Shown in pieces: positions 45,995 through 64,000 of a DNA stretch of 64,000 nucleotides (position 1 is its first letter; every line of letters begins with the position of its first letter). Source of the stretch: Moniliella sp. 'wahieum' (lineage: Eukaryota > Basidiomycota > Moniliellomycetes > Moniliellales > Moniliellaceae). Location of the stretch: assembly GCA_003971905.1 (NCBI GenBank), contig RSEE01000112.1:25001-89000 (forward strand), written 5' to 3'. The position numbers and the translations under genes are program-made. The notes under the pieces were generated by a model. That model was not told where the DNA came from. It worked only from the letters and a program-made list of their open reading frames with translations, and ran no database searches.

Positions 45995-47764
45995 GCAGCT
46001 GCGGGAGAAACCAATGTAGCATTGGGGCGGTATGGAGGCTGATTTGCACGGCGTAATTAATTTGCGGATTGAGCGCATTCCCCCTTCCCCCCTTACTCCA
46101 CCATGCACATAGATGCAACAGGCGCGCGCACCAGTCCTACTGCCTACTGCTCCGGGGGGGGGAGGTCCTGAGCAAGGTGGACTGGCAAGGTACGGCTCCG
46201 TGGTTGGATTCGACTGACGTTGCTCGGTACGTCCCTACGGGACCTCGCTTGCCCATCTCATGTTGTCCCCGCGCGGGCACTTTGGCCTAGTAGAAACCCG
46301 TTATTACGGACGAGGCTCAACTGGGAAGAAGTGGGATGCGGGCCGGCTTACCCTCTCCTCCGATGCAAAGGAGCGAACGGTGGCACGGCCCAAAAGAGCC
46401 GGGGGAAACGATGGCACTATGCCAAGTCAATTTGCCGGGGGACGAGAAGAGGACCAAAGCAAAGGGGAATGTTGGATTGAGCTGCAGTTGAGGAGTACTG
46501 TGCACAGGGTTACCACTGGGGTACTGCAGCCTGGGGTGGGTGCGTTCACTATTCAACATTGAATCTTGGTGTGCCAGAGAAGGAGGGCAGATGGATGGCT
46601 TGAAGATTGGATTGCTGAGATGGTGTCAAGTGCTGATGTGGGCATGTGAGGCCACATGGGGAGGAAGATGATGGATGAGATGGGCTATGGCGCTAACGGG
46701 CGGGCATGCGACATGTGCCCATGGCTTCAAGTGAAAGGGGGGCTGGAAGGGAGGAGAGAGGGACTAGGCCTTAGGGTCTGTGAACGTTTTGCACGTTCAG
46801 GTGAACTATACCCTGTCTGTACGCGCGGTGCCTGGTACCTGATGTGTTGTTGGTTTGTTTGTAAGGGATGGACGTTTTCCATCAGGCGTTGCGGGAGGGA
46901 TCGCCTGAGAAGATAGGCCGTGGGCAGGGCTGGGTACTGGTACTGGACAGTGGCGTGGCAGTGCCAGCCTGTAAGTGGCGCAGTGGCGCAGAGGCGCAGG
47001 CGCGCGTGCGGGGGAAATGTTGCAAATGGATCGGGGGGTGGGCAGGCGTTGTACATTTCAGCCGGCGCAGCCCCCTCGTTTGGTGGGGCGGGGTATATCT
47101 GTGCCACTCTGGCCCCCCGGTTTTGGTCTCGGGCGTGGCCGATGGGCTTGCGAGTGAGTAGTAACTAGTAACGGGTAACCAGGATCCATCCCCGGCTGGC
47201 CGGCCACCGCCACCGGCGACCTGGCGCCCTCCGCCCGAGGGGGCGCACTCAGTGTGCTAACAAACCATGCGACGTGGACGGCGTGTGTTGGCACGTCACG
47301 TGCATCCGCCGGCAGCTGCGACTGACTGAGGACTGAGTTAGACATGCCCTGATTCGGCCAATCCCAAGTGTCTCTGCCGCACCGCCCCTCGCCAGGCGCT
47401 GGATCTGCAATCCCCTCCCCTCGCCCCGTCCACACCTCCACCACACACACACGCCGTGCCGATGGACAACATCCGCGTGGATCCATTCGAGAGAATCCTA
47501 CTTCTTCCCGTCCTCTCAGATGTGAGACTGGATGGCTGATGGCTGATGCATGATGGCTGATGCCCCCTCCTTCAGGAAGCCTCAGGCACACCGTCAAACG
47601 CCCTTTGTCTCATCCATCTTCCCCCCTCGCCCCGGCGGAGACACGCCGTAGACAGGCGTAGCCCTGGGGCCTCGATTCTTCCCCTCCCCTCCTTCCCCAT
47701 GCAGCAACGGCGTGTGCCACAAGCCGCTCTTCGTCTTCGTGCCTGTAAAGTAGCTCCTCGTTGC

Positions 47765-47770
47765 TATAAA
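47765..47770 (+). promoter_or_regulatory. TATA box of the RlpA-like gene
   Basis: TATAAA in GCTATAAAACC, 122 bp upstream of the start codon and followed by a TC-rich leader, as expected for a strongly expressed secreted-protein gene. Confidence 0.6.
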
Positions 47771-47891
47771 ACCTCCGACCGTCGGGGGCTTGGGCAATCC
47801 TCTCCCCCTCACCAACCCACCAGCAGTCCTCTTCGTCCTTCTCTTGGCGTCCTCTTCTTCTTTTGTTTTTCCTTTTCGCACCTTTTTCATC

Positions 47892-48380
47892 ATGTTCGCC
47901 TTCACCAAGATTGCGGCTGCCGCCACCGCCGTTCTTGCCCTCTCGGCCTCGGCCGCGCCCATTGCCAAGCCCGCTGCCGAGCTGGAGAAGCGCCACTTTG
48001 CGTACGTTTTGAGTTTCCTCCTTGGCGCTGTGTCACCCTGTCAATCGTGCTTGTTGGTCTTGGCATTCGTGCGCATATGTACTTACCCTCCCGTCTGGAC
48101 AGTGGCCAAGCCACCTTTTTCGAGGTTGGTCTCGGGCGTGCGGGTGGACCAACCAACAACACCGACTTGTTGTCGCCCTAACGCGCCGCAGTACAAAGAA
48201 GCCTGCGGCAAGGAAATTGCCATTCTCAACCAGCAAAAGGGCATCTGGCAATTCGCCACGATTGTCGACCTCTGCCTGCTGCGCCGAGGGCAGCTTGGAC
48301 ATGTCCCCCGCCTCTTCTCTGCTCTCGACGAGGGCGACATGGACCAGGGCGTCTTCCCCATCGGCTGGCACTTCCTCTAA
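47892..48380 (+). CDS. Small secreted RlpA-like double-psi beta-barrel protein
   Basis: Two exons, 47892-48001 and 48103-48380 (GTACGT donor), about 128 residues. MFAFTKIAAAATAVLALSAS is a clear signal peptide; a short propeptide ends with a Kex2-type KR before HFA. The mature domain begins GQATFFEVGLG and carries the barwin/expansin-like marks CGWTN, NTDLVVAL-type sequence, YKEACGKEIAILNQQ, ATIVDLC, CAEGSLDMSPALFSAL and GDMDQGVFPIGWHFL. Such proteins are abundant in Agaricomycetes and act extracellularly; some bind cell wall or serve as effectors, but the role here cannot be told. Four one-base frame changes cluster at 48134-48180 and two more at 48240-48310; they fit homopolymer errors, but decay is possible. 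Cys residues of the family are retained across frames. Confidence 0.8.
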   Translation: MFAFTKIAAAATAVLALSASAAPIAKPAAELEKRHFAYVLSFLLGAVSPCQSCLLVLAFVRICTYPPVWTVAKPPFSRLVSGVRVDQPTTPTCCRPNAPQYKEACGKEIAILNQQKGIWQFATIVDLCLLRRGQLGHVPRLFSALDEGDMDQGVFPIGWHFL

Positions 48381-50152
48381 GCGCCGTATTGCCATTTGGC
48401 GTGCGGCTCACTCCCTCTGCCTCTCCCTTTGCTTCTTCTGCCTCTTTCCTCTGCCACTTTCGTGTTCGTTGTCTCGATCTTCCTTGGGTTCCCCGGTTCT
48501 GGTTTTTTATGGGCTCTTCTTCCTCTCCCTCTTTTCTTCGTTTGGGTAGGGGACTACTCTTCCTTTTGGGCTCCCACCGTGCTCCCCTGTCGTGCTAGCC
48601 ACGCTCGACACTTTGGCTGCCCCCCCCCCCCCCTTCCCCCCACCCGCGTCACCGTCCATGGATTGGCACCAAAACATCACCTGCCCACCGCGCCGAAAAG
48701 TCGACCTTTTCCTCACGGTTCACACGGGCCACGGCGCTGCAATCGCCCCCCCCCCCCCTCCCCGGGCTGTACCTGTATCATACGCCACGCTCTGCTTGCT
48801 GGCACAAAAAAGTATCCGTTGCAGGATATTCGATCGAAGCGCAGTGTCTGTCGTAGTATACCTTGCCTCCACAGAGCGTACCTGGGCAATAAGGAAGGAT
48901 ACAGTTGAGATACAGGTCAGTTACGCCGTTTGTACGGTATTAGTAATTGAATAGTAGGCGAAGAGCGCTGAGGTGTAGAACTGCTGATCATGTATGTATG
49001 TGGCGGGACTACGCCCTACCCCCCTGGGCCCTGTATGACGGTCGTCATGCGCAACTGCTAGTAGGTGGCTGTCTCCGACAAGGGATGGTGCAGTGTGCTG
49101 CAGACGAGTGTACAGTAGCAAGAAAAAGGAACTCTCCCGTCCGCCGCCGCCATCGTCATCGTCGTTGCCTCTTCCTCCGCAAGAGCCCGTTTGCAAGCGC
49201 GGAGATGGTGTACAGGTGGGATCAGGACTTGTTCGTGCGGTTCGCCCGGGCCGGGGCGGGGGTGTGGTCGCCCACCTGAGCATTTCATGCCAGATGGCGC
49301 CCACGCAGCAGGTCGCACACAGTTGGGCGGCTGAAGGGTTAGTTGGGTGGCGGACTTATTTTTTCGGCTGTGGGTGAAGATTGAGCTTCAAGATTGAGCC
49401 AGCGAACATTGAGCCATTGAGCATGGCTGGTCTCAGCTAGTGCGACAGCTCCCGCTCCGGTTCACGCCCGTTTGGCTCGACGGACACAACGAGCTTCAGC
49501 CGCTGAGCAGCTGGTGCGCGTTAGGACGAATGGGGTGGAGGGTCGGACGATCTCTATGATCAAGGCATCGTCTCCATATCCCGACCTCGAGGGTCGAGGC
49601 TCGATCGTGCCCAACCAACAACCAAGAACAACGCTCTCCTAAACCCTGATCAGAACACCGCCCTTCGCTCCGCACCAAGCTCGGTTGAACGGGGCCCGCG
49701 GCACGCTAGCCACAGCAATACTGTGCCATTGCATAGTCGAATTCCAGGCGAAATGGACAGGACTGAAAGAGAGGGGAAAGAGGAGGAGGAAACGGAGGAG
49801 GAAAGAAGGAGAAGGAGGAGCGAGACCATAGCCTCGCTCGATCCGAGCCGAGCCAAGAACTGAAATGGGTCCCACGAGCCAAGAACCAAGAACCAAGATC
49901 CAAGAACCAACAATCAACAATCAAGAAGCGGGACAGCCCACCGCCCTCTTCTGGGCAAAAAAAAACCAAACCAAACCAAACGAAACCCAAAATCCAAAAC
50001 CCAACAGCCAAGTAGCATCACCAATCGAGCAACTCCCGCGACGCTCCCTGCCCGAGCCGCACTTACCGGTCACCCCCCGAGTTGGAGATTCAGTCAACCG
50101 GCTCTACACCCACATAGTCCTCGCTCCAATCGGAACGCGGCGACGGGCTCGG
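48381..50152. other. Gene-poor region
   Basis: No supportable gene. It contains C tracts near 48619-48631 and 48746-48757, and AAGAACCA-type repeats at 49876-49925. Confidence 0.45.
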
Positions 50153-51625
50153 GCCGCCTCACCGTTCAAGGCGGCCGACGCGGGGGCAGATGGGGGACTG
50201 GCGTAGACGCTGGACCGGACAGTGGACCGGACGCTGCCCCGGTCGCAGGGCCCGAAAGGCGCAGGGACCGCACTCGGCGCAGAGGGAGCGACCGGTCGCT
50301 TTCCACTTCCCAACCCGTTCGTTGCGTCCGTATCGTCCGAGCCATCCCGGGCAGGGGAAGACGCTGCTCCACCTTGCGCTCCGGTCCGTGCCCCCGTCCC
50401 TGTCCCGTACTCGTACTCGTATCGTCTCCGTACCTGTCCCCGCCAACCCCGAAATCAAAGACTCGACCAGTCCGAGCGCACGGGTGGCCTGTTCCCCCCC
50501 GCCCGACCGGGCCATGCCTTCCACCAAGGAGACCAGGTTGGCCGTCACGCCGAGCAGGGGCGTCGGGCCGGCGTCGGCGCGCAAGGTACCTCCGGAACGG
50601 GAACCTCAGGGACCGAAGACGTCTCGGCCGCATCCGACGGTACCGCTGCCCCGACCGTCTGGGTGCCGGCCGAGGCGGCGCTCGCGTCCTGGGACGTAGT
50701 CGTCTGGGTGGCCGGGTGTGAAGGCGCAACGGGAGGGTGGGGGGCGGGGTGGGCAGCGGCAGGTGCAGCGGCCATCGGAGCAGCGGCGGGCGCAGCCACG
50801 CTCCCCAGCCCGGACAGGTACAACGTAGGAAGCAGGTCCACCACCGCGCGCCACGGCGGCAATCAACGCGTTGGGCACGCGCCGGGTGCGTGCGGAGAGG
50901 GGGGCGAAGGGCAGGACAGAAGGCGGGGAGGGGACACAGGCTCGGTGCTGGGACAGGGTCAGTGATGGCAGGACGAGAGAGGAGCCAAAACGGAGGGAAA
51001 GGGCACGTACGGTGTCACTTCAACTGCGGGCACGGGAGCGGGCGCGGGCTCCTTTGCGGGCTCTTTGTAGGCGGCTTTGCGGGCACAAGAACGACCGTAA
51101 ACCCAGGCTCCAACGAGGATGCGTTGTCGGCCGAGTCGACAAGCGCCTCCTTCATGAGCAGTTCCCAGGACTCCTGGCTGGAAATGATCGGGGTTGCGGT
51201 GGGTATGGCGGCGTGTTTCAACCATACGTCCCAGCGGGATGTATCGATTTCCCACTGGCGCACGAGAGCGGCGCGGACCTTGGCCCAGGAAGCAAAGGTG
51301 ACCTCGTCGTCGTGCAGGTAGGCAAACGGGATGAAGGTTCCATGGGAGTGGATCCGAACTGGTCTAGCACCTCCTTGCTCACTGTTTATGTGCGCGCCAT
51401 CAGGGCCATCTTGGGCGGCATGCTGGCCAGATGTAGGCGACGGAGGACGTGACCTGCAAGATGGCCAGCGTGTCGTCGCCGTAGGCGCGGATGGGGGAGC
51501 GGCGGGCGGGGGGTGCGTCGCGCAGCAATCGGCTCAGCGCACTTCGATCGTCCTCGGGGCGTGGCCCAGCTGGAGCGGTAGGACGAGTCGGAGCCAGCGT
51601 CGGAGGCAGCGTCGGAGGCAGGCAT
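50153..51625 (-). CDS. Hypothetical protein, function unknown
   Basis: A probable gene I cannot assign. It starts MPASDAASDAGSDSSYRSSW at 51625. A coding-like segment follows in shifting frames: RSPIRAYGDDTLAILQ, then HSHGTFIPFAYLHDDEVTFA, VRQWEIDTSRWDVWLKHAAI and SWELLMKEALVDSADNA. A GTACGT donor near 51010 follows VEVTP. Downstream sequence is Ala/Pro/Thr-rich (LPTLYLSGLGSVAAPAAAPM), then LVSLVEGMARSGGGEQATRA. Exon boundaries and the 3' end are uncertain. Amphipathic content and codon use resemble neighbours rather than noise. It lies 370 bp downstream of the eEF1A-like gene on the same strand. Confidence 0.4.
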
Positions 51626-51995
51626 GGTGGTGGTGGTGTGACGGGGCGGGAGCAAGCGCACGATTGGTGCGTTATAACTGGCGACGCACAGACGTGTGAG
51701 AGGCGCGTGGCGGTAGGGGTGGCTCATCAAACGCTGGTTCCCACACCGCCGCCGTGGCGGGCATGCGATAGTGGCCGCGGGTGGGACGCTCCGCCCGGGC
51801 CCCCACACGCGCCCGGCGGCTCCGTCGCAGGCGCCTCACTCCCGATACGTCTACTCCATCCCAGCGTACTCGCTCTCTACGTCTACTCCATCCTGATGTC
51901 CGTCGTCGCTGCGCCGAGGAGCGCTCGCACCATCCACGCCGGCAGCAGGCGCAGCATGCAGCACGATGGGTCAATTGATTATCTGCATCCACGTC

Positions 51996-53615
51996 TCATC
52001 CTGTCCCGCCCTCGCCCGGGTCCACCGTCTCCACCGACTGGATCAACCCCGCCGCCACCGTCTGGTGCCCGTCATGCATCACGAACCGCCCAAGCGACGC
52101 GAACTCGGCCGCCCCTCTCGACGCATACGGGGTGCGTCGGCACAAGCTGGATCAGCGCCGCTTCGCCCGACTCGAGACACGGCGGGGCCAGCGCGATCGT
52201 CTGTCCCGTCTTGCGGTCGAGCTTGGCCAGGATGCGCGTGAGCGTGCAGCGGACCTGCGCCGTGTGGCAGCTGAGCAGCGCACTCGAGCCCCGTCCGAAC
52301 GTGGTGTGCGGCTGCAGAAGGAGGAGGTGGGCGTGGAAGCTACGTGCTTCCCTTGGCGGGTCGATGGCCGGGTTGCCAACGACCGAGCCCGCACGGATGG
52401 TGGTGAGGGTTGGGATTGGGATAGGTAGTTGCTTCTGCCGCGTATTCTTCTGGCCTGCCAGCTGACGCAGCATCACCTCCACATGGTCCCCGGGCAACCC
52501 TTCGGGAAGAAGGAAGGGTGGCGCGCCGCCGTGATCGCATCGACGTGCAAACGCCCATTTCCCGGGGCCCAGGTGACCACCATGCCCTGGCGGAGCACGC
52601 CTGTTTCCACGCGCCCGTGGATCCGGACTCCGCCTCCGCGCTTTTCCACTTGCGCCTCCTGTACCGGAAGACGGAGCGGCGGTCGGTCGGACGTCGAGGC
52701 GGGTCCATAGCATCCAACGCATCCACCAGTGTCCTCCCCGAACGGTACGCGACCGGCGTCTCGGTTTGCCATCCTTCGTACCACGCCATCCCGCTCCCAC
52801 CACCAACCCCCTTGTCCCCCACATTCTCCCCGTCGACGCAGAGAGCGGGACAAAGGCGATGGATTCGCGGCGGAAGCCAACGCGGGCAAACAAGCGTGCG
52901 AGCCGGTGGGTGATCTGCGCAAACCGAGCCTTGGGATCGCACCCGGGCGAGATGGCATCCATCTTGTCACCGCTACAATCACTTGCCGCACGCCCAAGAC
53001 GAAGATCCGAATCACCCGCTCGCCAATCGACCCGTCCTCGCGCTGTCGTGCTCGACTTGCTCGGGGCTGGCAGCAGCGGAAACGACAAGCATGGCACAGT
53101 CTGCTTGTGAGATCGCAGCACACGTGCTCCAATCCCGCCCTGCTCATCTTCTCGCGTGTCCAGCAGCGTCACATAGTACTTGGCTGTCTCGAGCGGGTAC
53201 AGCATCGCTTGGTTCGCCTCCGGTTCGTGGTCTGCCTGCCCTTGCTCGTCCTCCCGCTCGCGTCGCTTGTTCTGCTCAGTTACGTGCTCAGGTCCCTGCT
53301 CTTGCTCTGCCCTAAGCCGGTCAAGCAACCGGGCATAGGGCAAGGAGCTTGGATCCACATGGTCCGTCTCGTGGCGCACTGGGTCCCCCGTCGGCTGCTC
53401 CACCGCGCCAGACTGGTACCCAAGCTGCGCAATCACGCTCGATTTGCCCGCCGCCGCCGCCGGACCGAGAACGACAACGCTCGCGGCGAGCTGCCTCGCC
53501 CGAGACGGGTTGGGTTGGTGGGTAGCGCGTTAGCCTCGCCCGACTCGACAGGTGAGGTGGGTAACGATCCACTCGGTCTCACAGGCGGGGGGGGACGTAC
53601 CTTGTACACCACCAT
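51996..53615 (-). CDS. Divergent eEF1A-like translational GTPase paralog
   Basis: About 500 residues with the three-domain EF1A architecture. A 15-nt first exon (MVVYK, 53615-53601) and a 110-bp GTACGT intron precede exon 2 (53490-51996). The P-loop is GPAAAAGKSS (G1 kept). LPYARLLDRLRAEQEQG aligns with the helix before switch I, but RGIT is absent and about 22 charged residues are inserted (starting EHVTEQNKRREREDEQG). After PLETAKYYVTLLD the DxPGH of G3 is replaced by DTREDEQ. G4 reads TKMD after a frame change near 52965 (LGVRQVIVAVT), and G5-like FVPLSASTGENVG follows. Domains II and III are recognisable: HGRVETGVLRQGMVVTWAPG, LLSCHTAQVRC, LDRKTGQTIALAP and LGRFVMHDGHQTVAAGLIQS. Loss of G2/G3 argues against ordinary EF1A activity. 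Alternatives are a regulatory pseudo-GTPase or a decaying duplicate. Confidence 0.8.
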
Positions 53616-54290
53616 CTGGGGCAAGGGAGGGATGGTGGTGGGTGCGATGAAGCAGATGGATGGCGGATGTGCTCTTACTACCTCCTTGAATCGTTAGTGA
53701 GTGCTTGGGAAGATGGCACCGACGCACCGACGCACCGACGAATGTTAATGACTGCGATGACTGCAATGACGTCGATGACGTGTCGATGACGTGTCGATGA
53801 CGATGATCATCGCTCCCTCACTAGACTGGCCTCAGGCCGGCCTCAGGCCTCACTAGTAAAGCGATTAACGCGAGACGACCGTGACCATCTATGACCCTCC
53901 TCGGACATGGCCGACTACGGAGTGTACTCAGATACTCATCCTGGCTTCTAACACTCAAGGCTTGATGATAGAGGAAAAGTACTCCTTGCAAGACCAAAGC
54001 CAGCGATGCGCGCTGGCCCTCAGTCACGTGCATTGTGGGAGGGGAGATGTGGCCACGTGACCGGCGCCATGCCCGACGCGTGTGATGCCGCTAGAGGCAC
54101 ACGGTGGGTGATCACCGCAGGGTGCGTATTGCAATTTCAGTCGCCCAGCGCGACGCGGCCAGCACTAGGGTTGGTAGGCGCCACGGCGCCAGTGTGGGGA
54201 CGCGGCGTCTTTATTTGCGGGCATCACGCGTCTCCTCCTCCTTCTGCCTCCTCCTCCTCCATCGGATGTGTGCGGGCGTGTCTGCTGCCA
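53616..54290. promoter_or_regulatory. Bidirectional promoter, eEF1A-like and cyclin genes
   Basis: 675 bp between divergent starts. It contains tandem TGACGT half-sites at 53767, 53776 and 53787 with a fourth TGACG at 53798, an AGGCCGGCCTCAGGCCT cluster near 53833-53849, and a TC-rich leader before the cyclin ATG. Confidence 0.5.
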
Positions 54291-56232
54291 ATGGTACGTC
54301 CACCCCCGTCGCCGCCACCCCCACGCTCACCCCCGCCGTGCTCGCCGCAGCCCACGACGCGTTCCGCCGCCGCGCCCGCGCCCTCCCACCCCAACGCCAG
54401 CGCGTGGCCCGCAGCCTCGCGCCCAAGCATCCCAACCACCTCCCGCCGGCCCCGGCCCCCGCCGCCGCCAAACCCCCCCGGCCCGTCGCAGGCCGGCCGG
54501 TACGTTCAGCGCGGGCCCCGCCAGCCGCCGCGTCTTCTCACCATGCCACCACCACCACCTCCTTCCCGTCCCATCCCACTCTCGCCTCCACTGTCCCCCC
54601 CGATGCGCGTCCCGCTCGTGCACACGGCACCAAGCGCCGCGCGCCGTCGACCCACCCGCCTCCACCGCCCCACCGCGGCACAAGAAGGCAAGAAACGCAA
54701 GCGGACGCGCGTCCGTGCTGCGGATTGCCCTAACGATAGTGATCGTGCTGCGGATTGCCCTGGCAATAGTGATACCATTGCCTTTCCGCTGTCCCGCAAT
54801 GCAACCCGGCGGATCAAGCGCGCCTTAAGCCGCGTCGTCTCGACGATGAAGGATGGGTGGACTTGGACGCGCAGGATGGGTATGACCCGTTGATGGTGGC
54901 CGAATATGTCAATGACGTTTTCGAGCACATGAGATCGCTCGAGGTACGTACGTTGGTCTCCGTTGTGTGTTTTTCTGCGGGGTGGTTGGGTTGGGTTGGC
55001 CTGGGAGCAGGCAGGCGTGCTGACGTTCGTGTGTGATCATGGAAATCGAATCAGGCCAAGACGATACCCAATCCAAAGTACATTGATCTCCAAGACGACA
55101 TTACGTGGGAAGAACGGGGCGTGCTGATCGACTGGCTCATCAACATCCACAACCGCTTTCACCTCATTCCCGAAACCCTCTTTTGGCGGTCAACCTGATT
55201 GACCGATTGTTGTCGATTCGTTTCGTTTCGCTGTCCAAGTTGCAGTTGGTCGGCATCACCGCCCTCTTTATCGCGGCCAAGTACGAGGAGGTGATGGTAC
55301 CGTCGATCACCAACTTTGTGTACGTGTGCAAGGATACCGTGACGGAACGCGAACTGTTGGAGGCAGAACGGTACCTGTTGCGCTCCTTGTGCTTTGACCT
55401 GTCCTACCCGAACCCCATGAACTTTCTCCGTCGCATCTCCAAAGCGGACGACTACGATATCCAAACGCGTACTCTGGCCAAGTACCTGATTGAGATCAGC
55501 ACGGTCGACTACCGGTTCATCGGGCACCCTCCGTCCGTCATTGCCGCCGCTGCGCTCTTCCTTGCGCGCGAGGTGCTGCAGCGCGGGCCGTGGGGGCCCA
55601 CCTTGGTCCACTACTCGGGCTACACAAGAGAGGAACTGTTAACAACAGCCGAGTTGATGGTGGACTATACGTTGCGTCCCCCTCCCCACCCTTACCTCCA
55701 CCGCAAGTACGCCAGCAAAAAATTTATGAAGGCCTCTACCTACATCCAAACCTGGGTCGCGCGCTACTGGCCCAAGACTGCCAGCCGCTTTGCCCGACGC
55801 GGCCAAGGCCGCCAACGCTGTGCCTCGGCTTCCGCCGCGGACGACGCCCCCCCCGTCCCAGCCACCTACGATACCTCCGGTCGGTGGGTCCCCGAAACCC
55901 CCCCAGTCGACTTGTTTGCCCACTTTGGTATCCTCACCCGACCTTGCACCCAAGATCTCTGGACCATCTTTGGCATTTTCCGCGCATTCTGCCAAGAACT
56001 CCAAACGCAAGCCGACGCTCACGCCCAAGCCCAAGCCCAAGCAGAAGCCCAAGCCCAAACTCAATCCCAACCCCAAACTCAATCCCAAGCGCACCTCTCC
56101 TCCTGCATCCCCACTCGCCTCCTTGCCCCCCGCTGCGCCGCCTCTCTCGCCCCGCCCACAGCGAGCGAGACCAGCGGCACTGCCCCCCCCGCAGCCTGCG
56201 CAGACGGGCGATCGCATGCCCAGCTGGGCTAG
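54291..56232 (+). CDS. B-type mitotic cyclin
   Basis: Regulatory partner of Cdk1 controlling mitotic entry. Proposed exons: the ATG alone (54291-54293), 54351-54943, and 55055-56232, all introns with GTACGT donors. The N-terminal region (MPTTRSAAAPAPSHPNASAW) is Pro/Arg-rich with a 30-bp in-frame tandem repeat (54715-54774); I see no clear RxxL destruction box. The cyclin box is highly conserved: YDPLMVAEYVNDVFEHMRSL, VLIDWLINIHNRFHLIPETL, LQLVGITALFIAAKYEEVMV, YPNPMNFLRRISKADDYDIQ, VDYRFIGHPPSVIAAAALFL and LVHYSGYTREELL. A T is missing at about 55181 (LF|LAVNLIDRL). After KYASKKFMKASTYIQTWVAR the frame stays open for about 160 residues, including an AQAQAQAEAQAQ run, longer than usual cyclin B tails. 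An alternative start is the upstream ATG at 54266 without the first intron. Confidence 0.9.
54715..54774 (+). repeat. 30-bp tandem duplication inside the cyclin gene
   Basis: Two 30-bp units beginning GTGCTGCGGATTGCCC. The period is a multiple of three, so the reading frame is kept. Confidence 0.85.
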
Positions 56233-56933
56233 ATCGCATCCCCGAGCTCACACGCTGTACGAACAGGAACAGGGCCAGAATGGTCACTTTGTTTTCCATC
56301 GGTCTTCGAAGCATTGCATCCCCCCCTCCGCACCCCCCCTGCATTCTGTTTATGCCCCCCCCTGTCGTTGCCGGCCTGGCTATTCTGTCCCTCGCCCACA
56401 CTCGCCACGCAGCTGCCCACCCTGGTTCGCCGTTCGCCGGGCACAGTTCGCCGTTCGTCGCCAATGCCATATTCTTCCTTCCCTTTCCTTCCCTTCCCTT
56501 TCTCCGTGAGACCTCCATTCAATATTCCATCATTACACGTTCCTCTTCCTTCCTTGCCCGCCGCGGCACCGCGCACCGCGCACGGGGGGGTCCGTTCGGA
56601 CAGAGGCAGTCAGAGTGGTAGCGTGCTAGCGTGCTTAAGGACCTTGGAAACTTGGAACTTGGAACTTGGAACTTGGAACTTGGAACTTGGAACTTGGAAC
56701 TTGGAACTTGGAACTGGGGCCGGCATGTCGCTGATGCGTCACACGCGCTATCTTCTTCCTTGGCATACTTGGCCGCTCCCTTGCACCATGTCCTCGCCCT
56801 TGCCCTTGTTCTTGTCCTCGCCACCCTCGTTTGCCTCCCCAACTCAAATTGATGGGCTGGAAGGGCGGGTGTCTACCGTACCGCGGTTCACGTTACCGCG
56901 TTACGCCTGCTCCCTCGTCTCTCAGATCTCATC
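56233..56933. other. Convergent intergenic region, cyclin and CSN5
   Basis: No gene. It contains the GGAACTT satellite and runs of CTTCCCTTTCC near 56478-56502. Confidence 0.5.
56650..56716. repeat. (GGAACTT)n heptanucleotide satellite
   Basis: About nine perfect heptamer units between the 3' ends of the cyclin and CSN5 genes. Confidence 0.95.
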
Positions 56934-58556
56934 CTACATCTTGGAGCTCCACAGGTCCCACGTCACATGCCACACGTCCTTCAACTGATCATAACTCATA
57001 GACTCATCGATCCTATTCGCTGCTCGGAGCGTGGCCCCGATATGTTCGGCAGATCGGACAGCACGTGCGTATTCAGAGCTCAGAGCGACGGGAACTGCAT
57101 GCCTGCTCGACCTTGGTTGAACACCTGGTCCTTCACCACTTGGGCCAGCAGACCATAGTGCGCGTCTCCCACCACCTTGCGCGCCTCCCCCGCCACTTGC
57201 TGCAGCCCAGGCTCGTCCCGGTGCTGCCGGAGCGCCGTGAGCAGCGTGTGGATCTGCTCTTGCGTCTTGGCTTGCGATGCGGACGGAAACGGGGTCTGGG
57301 TCTGGGAAGGCGATTGGGATTGCGAGGGCTGGGATTGGGATTGGGATGGGATTGAGATTGGGATTGGGATTGGGACTGGGACTGGGACTGGGACTGGGAT
57401 TGGGACTGGGACTGGGATGGGAGGGCGGCAGCTGCACTGTGGGTTCCGTTGGTGGCTCTTGGGTGGCTTCGGCACCGCCTCCCGCGCCCGCGGCCGTGGC
57501 AGTGGCAGGGGCCGGGCGGGAGGCGACCGGGTCGGTACGGGGAGTGGTGTTGGTCGTCGGTTGCTCCGCTGGGGTCGGTTCGGTCGTTCCCGGGGGCAGG
57601 AGTCGCCATTGTGCAGCTGCGACGTCGGATGCGGCCTCGGTGCGGGCCGAGGAGGAAGCAAGGAGGGACATGTCACCTTCCTTGAACCGAGCCGCTGACG
57701 CGGCAGCTTGCTGGGCCAAACTTTCTGGACGCCGTCCAAGCGGCGGCGAGGTGGGCGAGTTGGCCAACATAAAACGGGGCATTGTTGACCAGGGGGGAAT
57801 CAGCCAAGGTGGCGACCCAGTACTTGTGCCACAGCCGCGCGAGCACATGCGCATCCGTCGAGGTTTTGAACACCTCGATTGGCAGTGCATAGTATCGATC
57901 GGCATGGACGCCAAAGTCGGCTTGCTTGGCGGAGGGGATGAACTGGTACGCGCGCGGTTCGGCCTTCTTGCTGTTTTCGGGCAAGGTACGGAACGCTCCG
58001 ATTTCCACCTTGCCCGCGGCCATGGTGCGTTTGGGATCGACGACGATGGCCAGCCAGGGCTCGTTGTACGTCTGGTTCAGCGCTTGGGTCGCCACGTCAA
58101 TCCCCGAGAGCCAACAGCCGTACCCCGGGGGGAGTGGTACCAGCCCATGACGTTCTCCCCGCGCTGGACCTGGTGCGACGTCTCGGTAAACTGGACCATG
58201 TACTCGTACGCCTCGGCATGCGCATTCACCCGCGTCTCGGTGCCTTCGACCGGGAGCGCAAACACATCCATCACATACAACGTCCGCGTCGCCTCGTCCA
58301 CCTTGCCCTGCAGCAGGCCCATCCCTCCAGCTCGCCGCCCGACTTGGCATGCATCGCCATCTGATCAGCGCCACCACCGACACGCGCACGCGCACAAACC
58401 ACTCGCCGTCCGCCTGCCACGGCCGCGCGGCACTGAGCCGTTGCTGCGCCGCGGCGTCGTACACCAGCACCAGGTCCTCGGGCGGAGCGTGAGCACGTTG
58501 TTGCTGATTTCGAACGCGGCCTGCGCCAGCACGGACGGGTCGGGCGCACTGGACAT
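56934..58556 (-). CDS. CSN5: COP9 signalosome subunit 5 (CSN5/Jab1), deneddylase
   Basis: Zinc metalloprotease subunit that removes Nedd8 from cullins, controlling SCF-type ligases. It starts [20 protein letters not shown]. The MPN+ domain reads [85 protein letters not shown] and [20 protein letters not shown], then [20 protein letters not shown] and [16 protein letters not shown]. The HSHP of the JAMM motif (HxH...D) is lost only through a one-base gap at about 58128, between C runs; restoring an A would give the canonical motif, so the enzyme is probably active. About 540 residues, longer than the usual 330-370: a Pro/Thr-rich, repeat-encoded insertion ([14 protein letters not shown]) precedes the C-terminal helix region ([20 protein letters not shown]). 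Confidence 0.93.
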
Positions 58557-59212
58557 GGGGAGAGCGGGCAGCGACGGTGGTGGTGGTGGTGGTGGTGGGG
58601 TGGTGGTGTGGGGCGAGAGGGCGCCCCGGCCAGACCGACACCGAGCGGCGCACGGGCGGCTGTGTGCTGAGGTAAGCACCCGGGGGGGGGGGGGTGGTTT
58701 ATGGGGTTTAGCCAGTTGAGAACCCACCCTTGGCTGGCTCCAGCAGATGTACGCACACCGCCTGCCTCTCTCTTCGGTCCCTCGCCGCGCCCCTCTGCCC
58801 TCGTGTCGCTACGTCCGCGTGTGAGCCTGTGCTGTACAAATGGACAATGCACTCGTGCTGGGCGGTCGGCAGGGCTCATCCTCCCCCGTGCCGTGCCCCG
58901 CTCGTAGATACGAAAAAAAAAGGTATGGTGTACATGCCAACGCCTGCTCCCGCTCGCCCGCAGCCTTGCAAGCAAAGCGACGAGGGTGCGTCCACCGGTG
59001 CGGCCCTCACAGGAACCCTTGGTGCAACGATCACGGTGCAAGCTCCCTCTAATCAGTGCACAGTATACTCCGTACTCAGTCCACCCAGTCCCTGTCGACT
59101 CTGGTCCCGGTCAGCTGCCACTGGCCCTGTCCCTGTCCCATGGCGCAGCTCAGTGATCCGCGGTTCAGGGCGCGGGCCGAGACTCAGGGCTGCGATCAAG
59201 ATTCAATCCAAA
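58557..59212. other. CSN5 promoter region and 3' flank of the RING gene
   Basis: No gene. A GGT repeat at 58573-58601 lies just upstream of the CSN5 start, and a 15-base G tract at 58681-58695 further up. Confidence 0.5.
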
Positions 59213-60559
59213 TCATCTTGGCATCGGCATGCCAATCCGACCGACGCTCGGGTCCGCGCTGTGCGTCCGGGCCCGGCTCGGTCCATGCCGGGGGGAGCAG
59301 GCGCAGACGCACTGGGTGCGGGCGAAGCAGAAGCAGCTCTCGGAGCTGCGGCAGGCGCATCGTGGCATCATGTGCGTCGTGGCGTCGTGTGCGTCGGACC
59401 AGAAGGACTCAAACAGGGAGCGCAACCGTGGGCCCAACGGAGGCGGCTGCGACGAGGGCAGTTGCGCACGGCAAACCGGACACGTATTGTGCATCTTGAG
59501 CCAGGGCACGAGGCAGGTGGCATGGAAAAGGTGTTGGCAGGGTAACAGCATCGCCTGGTCCGTCGGGATGGTCGGGTCAAACCCTTCTTCGGGGGCCGTG
59601 GCCGTGGGGTGGCAGAGGGTGCCGAGCCCGGCGCTTCTTCGCCGCGTGCGCGCAGGGGCAGAAGAAGAAGCCTCCGGCGGCGGGAGAAACTCGTCGGTAC
59701 AAATGGGGCATTCGGTCGGGTTCTTAGTTGGCCAACTGGGCCTTGTCGCCAGTACTAAACCGGGGCAAGGCAGCGATCGCTTCTTGCGACGCAGGTGGTT
59801 CGCCCCCGCCCTGGCCACGTAACAGCTCTCAAACGATTGGGGCAAGACCAAGTCACGAAAGGGCATCATCCACTCCATCATGTGCGCCATCGGGTCTCCC
59901 GCGCCGGCGGCGGTGCGTCCCCGTCCCGCCGGCCCGGCCGCCAGGCGCAGTGAACCGATACGGACCCTGCCCTCGTCCGTCTTGCAAGTCTTCCATGAAG
60001 TCGACAGGCTGCGGAAAATCGAGTAGGGGCGTCCTCGGCCGCACCAGCACGATCCCTAGCATCCGAAGGCGTCGGCGTCTCGGGCGACGGGGCGTTGGAC
60101 GCGGCGGGCGGGGTCGGCAGGCCCGTGGACTCGCCATTCAGACCCATCAGACCTGCCATGGGCTCGAATGTCCATTGGCGGCCCGAACGAGATTCGTTGT
60201 CCCGACGGGGACGGGCGAGGCGGGGAAAAGGCAGCGGAGGAAGAGGCGGAGGCAGGGGCGGGGGGCAGGCCAAACGGACCGACCCACTCCATGGTGAGGG
60301 CCGAGCTGGAGGCGGCCAGGGGCGGCGGAGGGGTCGGTGGTGCGAGGGCACGGAGGAAGGTGGGGAAGATGGAGTCGGACGGGGAAGGGGGTCGATGGGG
60401 GGGGGGGGCATAGGGGGGCTGACGAGCTCGACAAAGTCGCTGCCGCATGGGGACAGGTGGGGCCCTGGGGCTGCTGGACGAGGTTGGAGGTGTGCTGGCA
60501 TGGTGGCACCACCCGGCCTGCGGAGGCGGGGTGGGGGGGGTGGGGGTGGAGGCGGACAT
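59213..60559 (-). CDS. RING-H2 finger protein, probable E3 ubiquitin ligase
   Basis: About 448 residues. The N-terminal half is Pro/Ser-rich and low complexity ([17 protein letters not shown]; a [17 protein letters not shown]-like stretch). A conserved-looking middle reads [20 protein letters not shown] then [20 protein letters not shown]. The RING-H2 domain at about 59710-59450 has ECPICTDEF, a Ser/Pro loop, then [20 protein letters not shown] and [11 protein letters not shown]: Cys-Cys, Cys-His, His-Cys, Cys-Cys order. The C-terminus is Cys-rich. No transmembrane segment is evident, so cytosolic or nuclear action is likely; the substrate is unknown. Frame changes occur near 60160, 60060 and 59890. 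It is divergent from the Mpv17-like gene, sharing a promoter with seven CACGTG boxes. Confidence 0.8.
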
Positions 60560-60944
60560 GGCGGGGGGAATGGTGATGGTGGTGGTGGTGGTGATGGGGG
60601 ATGGCGGTTGGTGGTGGTGGTGTGGAGGGGCAGGGGCAAAGCGGCCAATGGGTTTCGATTGGGTTCGGGGCTGCTGAGCCAAGGCCGAGGCGGCTATCAA
60701 TGCTCAATCCACCGTCCCTCAGCCACGCCACTGCAACTTTCACAACCCACGTGACCGCACACGTGATCCCACACGTGCCACCGCACACGTGATCCCACAC
60801 GTGCACCCGCACACGTGACTGTGCACGTGACACCCCCACTGGCCCAAGCAGCTGCTCGCGCGAGCGACTGGGAGCGACGGGCGCGGTGGTTACCGCCGCG
60901 CAGAGCAGCCGCCCCAGCATCGCCACAACTTCGCCCACGCCATA
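60560..60944. promoter_or_regulatory. Bidirectional promoter, RING-H2 and Mpv17-like genes
   Basis: 385 bp between divergent start codons, dominated by the CACGTG array described separately. Confidence 0.6.
60748..60829. promoter_or_regulatory. Array of seven CACGTG E-boxes
   Basis: Perfect CACGTG palindromes start at 60748, 60760, 60772, 60786, 60798, 60812 and 60824, spaced 12, 12, 14, 12, 14 and 12 bp, i.e. a little over one helical turn. The core unit is CACACGTGATCC or similar. CACGTG is the site of bHLH factors of the Cbf1/Pho4/USF class. Confidence 0.85.
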
Positions 60945-61595
60945 ATGGACCTTCTCTCGCGCCTGCTCGCCGCAGCCACCGCCACGTCAGCACGCCGCAT
61001 CGCCACCACCGGTGCGCTCTATGCCCTGAGCGACGTCCTTTCCCAGTCCATCGCCCCCCCCACCACCACCGCCACCGTCACCACCACCACCGCCACCCCC
61101 GCGCGCTGGGACGCCGCCCGCACCCTCCGCCTCGCGCTCTATGGCGCCGCCGTCTTTGCGCCCCTGCAGGACGTCTGGCTCGGCACCGTCATTGAGCGCG
61201 TCCCCTGGGGCACCGCGGCCAAGGTCGCGCTGGACCAGCTGACCATGTCGCCGTTCGGCCTGCTTCTCTTCCTCGTGTACACTGCCTGGCTCCAGCCCTT
61301 GCCTGTGGTGCGTGGTGCGCCTCGCGTGCGCTTCCGCGCATGGCGCCCCGACGCGCTCCGCACCCGCACCCACGCCGCCAAACGCAAGATCCACCTCGAC
61401 TTTTGGCCGACGCTCAAGCGATCGTGGGCGGTGTGGGTGCCGGTGCAGGTGATCACGATGCGTCTCGTGCCGCCCCATGCGCGTCTGCTGTTCTGCACCT
61501 TGGTCGGGGTGGTGTGGAACTGCTTTTTGTGTCTGGTCGCTGTGCGCCAGACCAAGCAGGAGCAGGCCGACGTGCTGCCCTTAACGCGCATCTGA
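60945..61595 (+). CDS. Mpv17/PMP22/Sym1-family inner-organelle membrane protein
   Basis: 216 residues in a single open frame, with no frame change. Proteins of this family (yeast Sym1, human MPV17) are four-helix channels of the mitochondrial inner membrane or peroxisome, needed for metabolite balance under stress. The N-terminus MDLLSRLLAAATATSARRIA resembles a mitochondrial presequence. Family marks: ALYALSDVLSQSI, LRLALYGAAVFAPLQDVWLG, ALDQLTMSPFGLLLFLVYTA, FWPTLKRSWAVWVPVQVITM, RLVPPHARLLFCTLVGVVWN and CFLCLVAVRQTK. Usual length is 175-220. A Thr-rich insertion (TTTATVTTTTATP) follows the first helix. It starts at the ATG in CCATAATGGACC. Confidence 0.88.
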   Translation: MDLLSRLLAAATATSARRIATTGALYALSDVLSQSIAPPTTTATVTTTTATPARWDAARTLRLALYGAAVFAPLQDVWLGTVIERVPWGTAAKVALDQLTMSPFGLLLFLVYTAWLQPLPVVRGAPRVRFRAWRPDALRTRTHAAKRKIHLDFWPTLKRSWAVWVPVQVITMRLVPPHARLLFCTLVGVVWNCFLCLVAVRQTKQEQADVLPLTRI

Positions 61596-62578
61596 CGTCC
61601 AAGGCAGTAAGTCGCTGCACGCATGTCTCCGCTGTTGGCCACCGTCGCCCTGCGCCTCGCCGGCCGCCTGGGAGAAAACACTGTCCACCCTCGATCCCCC
61701 TCGCACCCGTCTCCTGTCCCCCTTCGTTCTCTTAGCCTGCATGCGCTCCTTGATTGATCCCAACCGCGCTTTCTCCTTCTCCTCCCGCCACGACACGCAC
61801 CGCCATCCGCTTCCCTCTGAACGCTGCCTCTGCCCACCTGATCCACCTCCGCATTCAGCCTCCCCCGGGGTAGACCCACAGTCCGCACGTCTGTCAATAA
61901 CCGTTCCGGCAGCGGCCTGGATAGCATGGCGTCCATTCGCTCCTCAGCTCTCGGTCCTCAGTTCCTGTCCCGCTGTGACCCTTTTGGGCTCGCTCTGCTC
62001 CCTTGCCTGAGTCGGGGGGGGGGATCGATCGAGGGGTGATGCCGCTTCCTCAGGTAAGAATGTCCCGGCACGTCGGTACGTCGGTGTAGCTGTGTTCCCC
62101 TCCGCCCCGCTTAGTCTGGGTTGGGTCTGCGGGATGGCCGTGCCAGCCTGGGGCGCTGTGTGCGGCTCATCGCGTTCGGATTGCTGCGATTGTCCTAGGC
62201 AGAGTTTGTACCATGTGTTTTTTATGATGCCCACCCAAGGATGGGGCAGAAGCAAACGCAGGCACCAGCACCGCGTTCTTATCGAGCTCGTCGTGCTGTC
62301 TGCGTTCACTGGGGTGGAAACGCACGGTGAGGGGGCACCCTCTGATGAAGCAGAAGTGCAATCCTTATCCTTGTTGACGAGACGGGCGTTGGAAACGCTC
62401 CGCGTCCTCCCCGCCATGGAATGGCGCATCTCCTTTCCTACCCATTTGCCTGACCATAGCGTCGCGCACAAGGCCAGTGGGCATTGTGCTGTGCCCCGCG
62501 GGACAGACACGATGGCCGGGACTACATAGCCGTCGATCATCCATCCCATCCCCTCCGGTCCCGCCGACCTCCCCCCCC
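61596..62578. other. Convergent intergenic region
   Basis: Just under 1 kb between the 3' ends of the Mpv17-like and dioxygenase genes. Open frames here (e.g. minus strand 62870-61944) look like read-through or shadows; no motif is recognised. Confidence 0.45.
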
Positions 62579-63493
62579 TCACCCGAACGTAACGTCCGAC
62601 CGGAGCACCCACTTGACTCCGGCCGTAGGTGGGCGCGCTTCGTGCAGCATGCATGCCTGTCCCCACACACGGTGCCCCACCCCACCGCCGCCGCCGCCGG
62701 CACGCCACCCAGGTCAGCAACCAACCGATACCGATTCGTTTGTGTCTCCCTTGGCAGTCGCAGCCGCTCGGAAGGGAGGGGGGGGGGGGGACGTACATCG
62801 CCATGGCGGTGGAGCAGTGCGGCGCCTCGTTCGAGCGGCATGACAATTTCCTTATCGGGTCGCTTGGCATGGTCCTGGTAAAACACCGTCTCGCCGCCTA
62901 CCACGCCATCTTGTGCGCCCGTCAGGTAAATGAGCAGTGTCCATTCTCTTTTTGCCCGTGATGGTATCCACCACACTACCATCGTAGTGCGCGCCAAACG
63001 CCTGGCCGGGCAGGTAACGGTACACACGAATGTTGGAGTTGAGACCGGTGGCGTGCAAGCCTTTGATCTTTCCTTCGCTGCCCACCCAGGTACGGCAGGC
63101 AGGCGCGAGCAACTGCCACAAGGTATGGGCAAACTGCACGTCCTCAATCGACCAGCGCTCGTTGCTACGACTCGCTTCGCCTCGTCGCGCCGGCGGCGGG
63201 GAGGAGGAAGGGTGGGCATCGCACGCCTGGATCAGCGCATGGCACTCTTGCCGAGTGAAAAAGTTGTGCACCACCCCCAGTTGGTCTGCTAGGCGCCAGT
63301 CGATCGAGCTGGGGTCCAACCCGGGCTGCGGCGCCAAGCGCGGCCACACCATGCGGGCCCCCGACCGGGACCCAGCACGTGGGCCGCCCGCCTTGCTCGG
63401 CGCTTGCGACGGTGCAGACTTGGATTTGGCTTTGGCTTTGGATTTGGGGTTGGAGGTGGTGGTGGCGGCGGGCGTGGACTTGGACTTGGCCAT
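62579..63493 (-). CDS. Prolyl-4-hydroxylase-like 2-oxoglutarate/Fe(II) dioxygenase
   Basis: Exons 63493-62797 and 62656-62579, with a 140-bp GTACGT intron; about 257 residues. A basic N-terminus (NPKSKAKAKSKSAPS) may direct nuclear or nucleolar location. The P4Hc domain has WRLADQLGVVHNFFTRQECH, SNIRVYRYLPGQAFGAHYDG with the metal-binding HxD, REWTLLIYLTG, GGETVFY, and, joined across the intron, CMLHEARPPTAGVKWVLRSD, giving the distal His and the 2-oxoglutarate-binding Lys. A one- or two-base gap lies near 62950 (KKR|EWTLL). Substrate is unknown; no signal peptide is seen, so an intracellular target rather than collagen-like secreted protein is likely. A TGACGTCA lies about 90 bp upstream of the start. 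Confidence 0.88.
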
Positions 63494-64000
63494 GCTGCTC
63501 GCCGTGGGGAAGGCAGGTGGGTGGGGGGACGCGGCGGTGGTGGAACAGAGGTGGGAGAGTGCGGCTGCCCTCGCCGTGCCGTGACGTCAGCGGCTGCCCC
63601 TTCGGGTGGCGGCGGCACAGCGGAGCAAGAATGAAAGCCAGCAGTTCGAGACGCCCAACCGACCATTTCCACCCGCTGCGCACCAAGAAAGAAGCAAGAG
63701 GGGACGGAGAGACAAGAGCGGGGGGCGCTTCGTTCTTCGTTCTTCGTACTTCGTGCGCACACCCGCTCGCAGGAGCATCTCTTATGTGTGCAGAACTGCC
63801 GGTGAGCCCCACCAGCCATGGAGAACAGGTCATCTCGCTGCCTGCCCCCGCCCCTTTCCAGCAGCACAGCAACCATCACGAAACCCCCAGCGTCCATCAA
63901 AAGCAATATGTACGACGAGCGGATAAGACCCGCGGGTGGACCATATCCATACGAGGCCTGGGGCTAGGTCTGAAAGGCCTCAAACCATCAACGAACTCTC
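63494..64000. other. Promoter side of the dioxygenase gene and window end
   Basis: No gene seen. A TTCGTTCTTCGTTCTTCG repeat lies at 63728-63752. An AGGCCT motif recurs near 63976. Confidence 0.45.
63582..63589. promoter_or_regulatory. TGACGTCA upstream of the dioxygenase gene
   Basis: Perfect CRE/ATF palindrome 89 bp upstream of the start codon at 63493. Confidence 0.5.

Follow-up and report, generated by a model that had tools for sequence, protein, structure and literature searches.

An eEF1A-derived gene with replaced switch motifs in Moniliella sp. 'wahieum'

The gene at positions 51996 to 53615 of the window (the whole 64,000-nucleotide stretch of DNA analysed here) derives from an eEF1A gene, as is shown by sequence similarity and a common intron site. 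We consider it rather probable that it is a divergent eEF1A duplicate which codes for protein under relaxed purifying selection and became a pseudo-GTPase. The initial annotation had proposed an eEF1A paralog with lost switch motifs that may bind nucleotide without normal hydrolysis. This is the best-supported reading given 13 copies of real eEF1A in the same genome, replacement of the switches in both genomic copies of the paralog and a dN/dS of 0.40 between these copies; nucleotide binding is predicted from motifs. eEF1A is highly conserved, and a selected duplicate devoid of switches would separate the side roles of eEF1A from the GTPase cycle. If selected, such a gene would constitute a natural test of which eEF1A surfaces the side roles need.

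Gene layout and descent from eEF1A

The limits proposed in the initial annotation are exact for a gene on the minus strand, with ATG and TGA at its ends; that annotation had named neither the strand nor the intron. The features of the gene in the window, with reference where needed to a second copy on contig C102, are as follows.

53615-51996, minus strand: eEF1A-like paralog gene (ATG 53615-53613, TGA 51998-51996)
53601..53615, minus strand: exon 1, MVVYK, 15 nt, read from the sequence; its end site is that of MGKEK in the real eEF1A genes
53491..53600, minus strand: intron 1, 110 nt, predicted from the sequence (GTACGT donor, CTAAC at 53533-53529, CAG acceptor)
51996..53490, minus strand: exon 2 (G domain, domain II, domain III and stop), assigned by homology, with one-base frame breaks in the assembly
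53437..53466, minus strand: P-loop (G1) GPAAAAGKSS, one Ala more than GPAAAGKSS of the C102 copy
53203..53292, minus strand: charge-rich stretch PEHV...NQAM, 30 codons, at the place of switch I ITIDIA of eEF1A
53140..53160, minus strand: DTREDEQ at the DAPGHRD site (G3, switch II) by alignment; same DNA in the window and C102 copies
52956..52970, minus strand: G4 site, with a one-base difference from the C102 copy, which reads VVNKMD
52805..52833, minus strand: cluster of G-runs with the frame break common to both copies, directly after the G5-like SAST
52430..52700, minus strand: domain II-like region, approximate limits from alignments of the C102 copy; GRVETG, GMVVT and LPEGLPGD retained, MHHE region altered
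52010..52410, minus strand: domain III-like region (limits approximate); the short end after it does not have the Lys-rich tail of eEF1A

Intron 1 of the paralog matches intron 1 of the genome's own eEF1A genes in both site and phase. The layout of the latter (ATGGGTAAGGAAAAG, an intron GT...CAG and CTTCACGT) was found in 12 of the 13 eEF1A copies, with introns of 68-98 nt as calculated from distances; for the copy on C110, exon 2 and its CAG were located and a scripted scan found no ATGGG start upstream. In the C102 copy of the paralog the first exon reads ATG GTG TAA, that is, a stop.

Domains II and III had been described as EF1A-like from the letters of the window, and the comparison with known structures bears this out: the domain II-III piece of the C102 copy matches yeast eEF1A (1F60) with 173 bits (E 7.6e-50), compared with 72 bits for HBS1 and 53 for eRF3, and the G-domain piece scores 96, 56 and 45 bits in the same order. 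The long frame of the window copy (469 aa) has 15 PDB matches, 13 to EF1A (best E 1.4e-27) and two to HBS1. Pfam profiles found PF00009, PF22594 (93.8 bits) and PF03143 (58 bits) in the C102 copy, in which PF03144 (domain II) was not detected at E 0.01; in the window PF03143 scores 43.5 bits across one TGA. The two pieces, scanned apart, reach 91.5 (G domain) and 162.8 bits (domains II-III) with TIGR00483, far below its cut-off of 540.1 bits, and the genome's own eEF1A on C23 reaches 746.6. Identity to the genome's own eEF1A is 38% for the G-domain piece and 45% for the II-III piece. Similarity is best to eEF1A over HBS1, eRF3 and EF-Tu, and the intron 1 site is common to both. An identity as HBS1, eRF3 or Ski7 was rejected, as the bit scores favour eEF1A.

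Catalytic motifs and the second copy

A DNA search of the genome itself (69.5 Mb, 223 contigs) gave just two loci for the paralog, one in the window and one at C102:116404-118042 (93% identity). With the G-domain piece of C102 as protein query, the close matches were again the window and C102 only, the others being eEF1A or remoter relatives (33-45%). Among viral contigs, nine stretches fitted the patterns in one scan and none was a relative. The flanks are collinear as well: window 47.3-64 kb aligns with C102 in four main pieces of 88.7-94.3% identity, the two loci lying in opposite orientations. To judge by this collinearity, the two segments are homeologous or allelic.

Both switches are replaced in both copies. 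In the window 30 codons stand in place of about six at switch I, a net gain of 24, and 13 of the 30 residues are D, E, K or R; the C102 insert that replaces ITIDIA has 31 residues, 12 of them D, E, K or R. The claimed loss of RGIT through a charged insertion therefore holds, with a net gain near to the roughly 22 residues that had been estimated. DTREDEQ stands for DAPGHRD in both copies, as had been read from the window, and the normal switch II DAPGHRDFIKNM is spelled in none of the three frames of C102 at that place. The string REDEQG is present in both replaced switch regions (window 53292-53203 and 53160-53140) of both copies, possibly as a short internal duplication.

Other motif readings of the initial annotation have to be corrected. 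The P-loop had been called intact, but GPAAAAGKSS of the window has five residues between G and GK; the C102 copy, with one GCG triplet fewer, has four (GPAAAGKSS), which is the canonical spacing. TKMD, given for G4, is found in no frame: because of its one-base difference from C102, which reads VVNKMDA, the window gives VTRWMP or GDKMD. GxxxxGK and NKxD are accordingly present in C102 and absent as read in the window. The frame had been described as continuous from the P-loop through TREDEQ, and over that stretch it is open in the window; it breaks soon after; in C102 it is uninterrupted from GPAAAGKSS through NKMD to SAST.

Taken with the C102 readings, the paralog retains G1, NKMD, a G5-like SAS and the Asp of DxxG. 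The residues aligned with EMHHE of eEF1A are A-L-P-P-F in one alignment and T-A-A-L-P in another, the Glu and the two His being lost in both, and alignment of the C102 copy shows that the Lys-rich C-terminal tail of eEF1A is absent. Judged by sequence only, the protein is without catalytic motifs, as a pseudo-GTPase would be.

Frame breaks, assembly and the eEF1A family

Neither copy of the paralog has an intact frame as assembled. Between the window and C102 the gene shows seven one-base gaps (one in exon 1, six in exon 2), and one further break, just after SAST, is common to both. Counting exon 1, the gene has five multi-base gaps, every one of a length divisible by three and at least one in a GCG repeat; across the collinear 47.3-63.8 kb, the gene included, such lengths are found in 39 of 125 multi-base gaps. 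That same interval has 195 one-base gaps, 877 substitutions and 14567 identities (15.4 kb aligned), and window 47331-63813 shows about 12.6 one-base gaps per kb against C102.

The true eEF1A of the same genome, which the initial annotation had proposed as the comparison to be made, occurs in 13 copies (C14, C19, C8, C15, C88, C23, C127, C156, C39, C110, C91, C11 and C44). They were searched in three frames for seven motifs, six from the G domain or domain II and the seventh from domain III: RGITIDIA, VNKMD and SGWN were each found in 13 of 13, GHVDSGKST, DAPGHRDF and EMHHE each in 12, and the domain III motif in 11. The sole copy missing DAPGHRDF has a 2-base indel just before the motif, and a missed motif is taken as an assembly error where an indel lies in or beside its site. 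C23 is the only copy with an uninterrupted exon 2, and it lacks a codon present in the 12 others; relative to it, each of these 12 carries at least one non-triplet indel. Manual counting over about 16.4 kb gave 54 one-base indels. Of these, 51 are losses (1 to 12 per copy), and several copies share the site of some of them (C-runs at positions 683-689, 1144 and 1229 in C23 numbering).

Against C23, with gapped codons dropped, the same 12 copies have 0-2 nonsynonymous substitutions and 9-54 synonymous ones over 437-452 codons (dS 0.030-0.195; dN/dS 0.00-0.01). On these counts eEF1A forms a large family under strict conservation, in a genome that is duplicated or polyploid. Its indels appear to be mostly assembly errors, since copies with only 0-2 nonsynonymous differences are hardly decaying. 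The frame breaks of the paralog carry little weight because the eEF1A copies show the same indel background, and those in the window probably stem for the most part from errors of assembly. The assembly resembles one of little-polished long reads, and frame-based findings in the window need a second copy; single motif letters and frame breaks are unreliable here when read from one copy.

The shared break falls in the longest run identical between the window and C102 (121 nt, L010 2235-2355), a position with P 0.033 under uniform placement, examined after the fact. A programmed slip on the G-run at this point was considered and is not claimed, the run and its P value being too weak a support. 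Three GT-AG spans of fitting length (44, 29 and 14 nt) cross the break between the flanking well-aligned stretches; a second intron is unlikely, as the spans are shorter than the eEF1A introns and neither a GTACGT or GTGAGT donor nor a CTAAC was seen.

Elsewhere in the window, the next gene (MPASDA..., about 51625 to 51010, minus strand) has several one-base gaps relative to C102 and a TAA at 51388-51386 where C102 has GAA, a substitution, and the C102 version seems to change frame once; this gene may be decaying in the window copy. Six ORFs of the window were scanned, with a cyclin ORF (PF02984/PF00134) at 55105-56232 (plus strand), a RING-finger ORF at 59213-59890 (minus strand) and no Pfam match in the other four. 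Window 55058-55737 has 76% relatives on C4 and C57, and a short repeat lies at about 56001-56098 (47 of 59 among the matches listed, by manual count).

Selection and rival explanations

An estimate of dN/dS and of the conservation of insert and motif loss had also been proposed, for orthologs from related species. Within the genome, the two copies each carry both features, and a comparison of them in frames derived from eEF1A, with gapped codons dropped, counts 34 synonymous and 40 nonsynonymous changes over 487 codons (dS 0.095, dN 0.038, dN/dS 0.40, bootstrap 0.23-0.67). Shifted frames of the same sequences give 1.37 and 1.13 (10 and 8 stop-bearing codons skipped), and none of 1000 neutral simulations was as low as 0.40 (null mean 1.03; 485 codons, different alignment). 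The intron diverges at 11 of 106 aligned bases (0.104), near dS. By these measures purifying selection, far laxer than that on eEF1A, acted on the protein during at least some of the period after the copies separated. By codon position the substitutions number 20, 20 and 34, a milder skew than dN/dS suggests. The neighbouring cyclin ORF, read with provisional exon limits, has a dN/dS of 0.45 (364 codons, one stop skipped).

The ratio of 0.40 is an average since the copies split and is compatible with recent loss in one or both, which gives some room to a decaying duplicate, selected while the copies diverged and recently turned pseudogene, its breaks being real. This we regard as possible but doubtful. 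The break common to both copies, the stop in the first exon of C102, the six one-base differences in exon 2, the damage to the neighbouring gene in the window and a ratio relaxed relative to that of eEF1A are all what decay would leave. However, one-base losses of 1 to 12 per copy, some at recurrent sites, in the eEF1A genes leave the breaks little weight, and dN/dS is below 1 both before (0.35) and after (0.45) the shared break.

That the motif losses are themselves assembly artefacts in an ordinary eEF1A gene is barely credible and was rejected. Indels are indeed many in this assembly, but the insert and DTREDEQ recur in two copies that were assembled separately and are 93% identical, no other frame of C102 spells the motif there, and elsewhere the protein shares only 38-45% identity with eEF1A of the same genome. 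Highly unlikely too, though less so, is a working GTPase with other catalytic residues, as considered possible for Ski7, in which the charge-rich insert would substitute for switch I. C102 retains G1 and G4 as well as the Asp of DxxG, and the available part of one report describes a GTP-bound Ski7 in which Ser replaces the catalytic His, and leaves hydrolysis open (PMC4509514). But by the same partial account the switch framework is preserved in Ski7, the main difference being at the His (PMC4509514), whereas the paralog has also lost the DxxG glycine and the region of the switch I Thr.

For the preferred reading, a switchless duplicate under relaxed selection, a mode of action may be proposed from the motifs. 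G1 holds the phosphates, G4 and G5 the base, and G2 and G3 the gamma phosphate, according to the accessible portion of PMC4509514. The paralog could hold a guanine nucleotide through G1, NKMD and the G5-like SAS, and would neither sense nor hydrolyse the gamma phosphate because it is without the switch I Thr, the DxxG glycine and the catalytic His. The Glu and His-His of eEF1A EMHHE sit at the tRNA 3' end, to judge from work on EF-Tu. With these residues and the Lys-rich tail lost, the paralog should not deliver aminoacyl-tRNA. Most likely it would be a static binding protein on the eEF1A shape, for instance one engaging eEF1A partners or another moonlighting target. More specifically, and only tentatively, it may be a nucleotide-holding protein fixed in one state, both switches replaced by charge-rich stretches; it would then engage the partners of eEF1A with no GTPase cycle and would parallel Ski7, but from eEF1A itself.

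Among the literature matches listed, as far as their accessible text goes, no such eEF1A paralog is described. HBS1 and eRF3 belong to the same superfamily, but on both pieces they score well below eEF1A. EFL is likewise a divergent eEF1A paralogue, which appears to do the job of eEF1A and to be almost mutually exclusive with it (PMC4342817, available part); unlike EFL, the present paralog occurs in a genome with 13 eEF1A copies, so that eEF1A is not replaced, and both of its switches are lost. Yeast Ski7, derived from Hbs1, is similar in outline as an EF1-family duplicate with a non-canonical catalytic centre, but retains the switch conformation (PMC4509514, available part). The paralog scores closer to eEF1A than to Hbs1; the N-terminal region of Ski7 binds the exosome (PMC4933942, available part), and such a region was not seen in the paralog. 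Compared with eEF1A itself (the genome's own 13 copies and yeast 1F60), the paralog differs in its replaced switches I and II, in the loss of the EMHHE region and Lys-rich tail and in an 18-residue insert before domain III, and it shares the three-domain alignment, the site of intron 1, G1-, G4- and G5-like parts and the motifs GRVETG, CHTA and QTVA.
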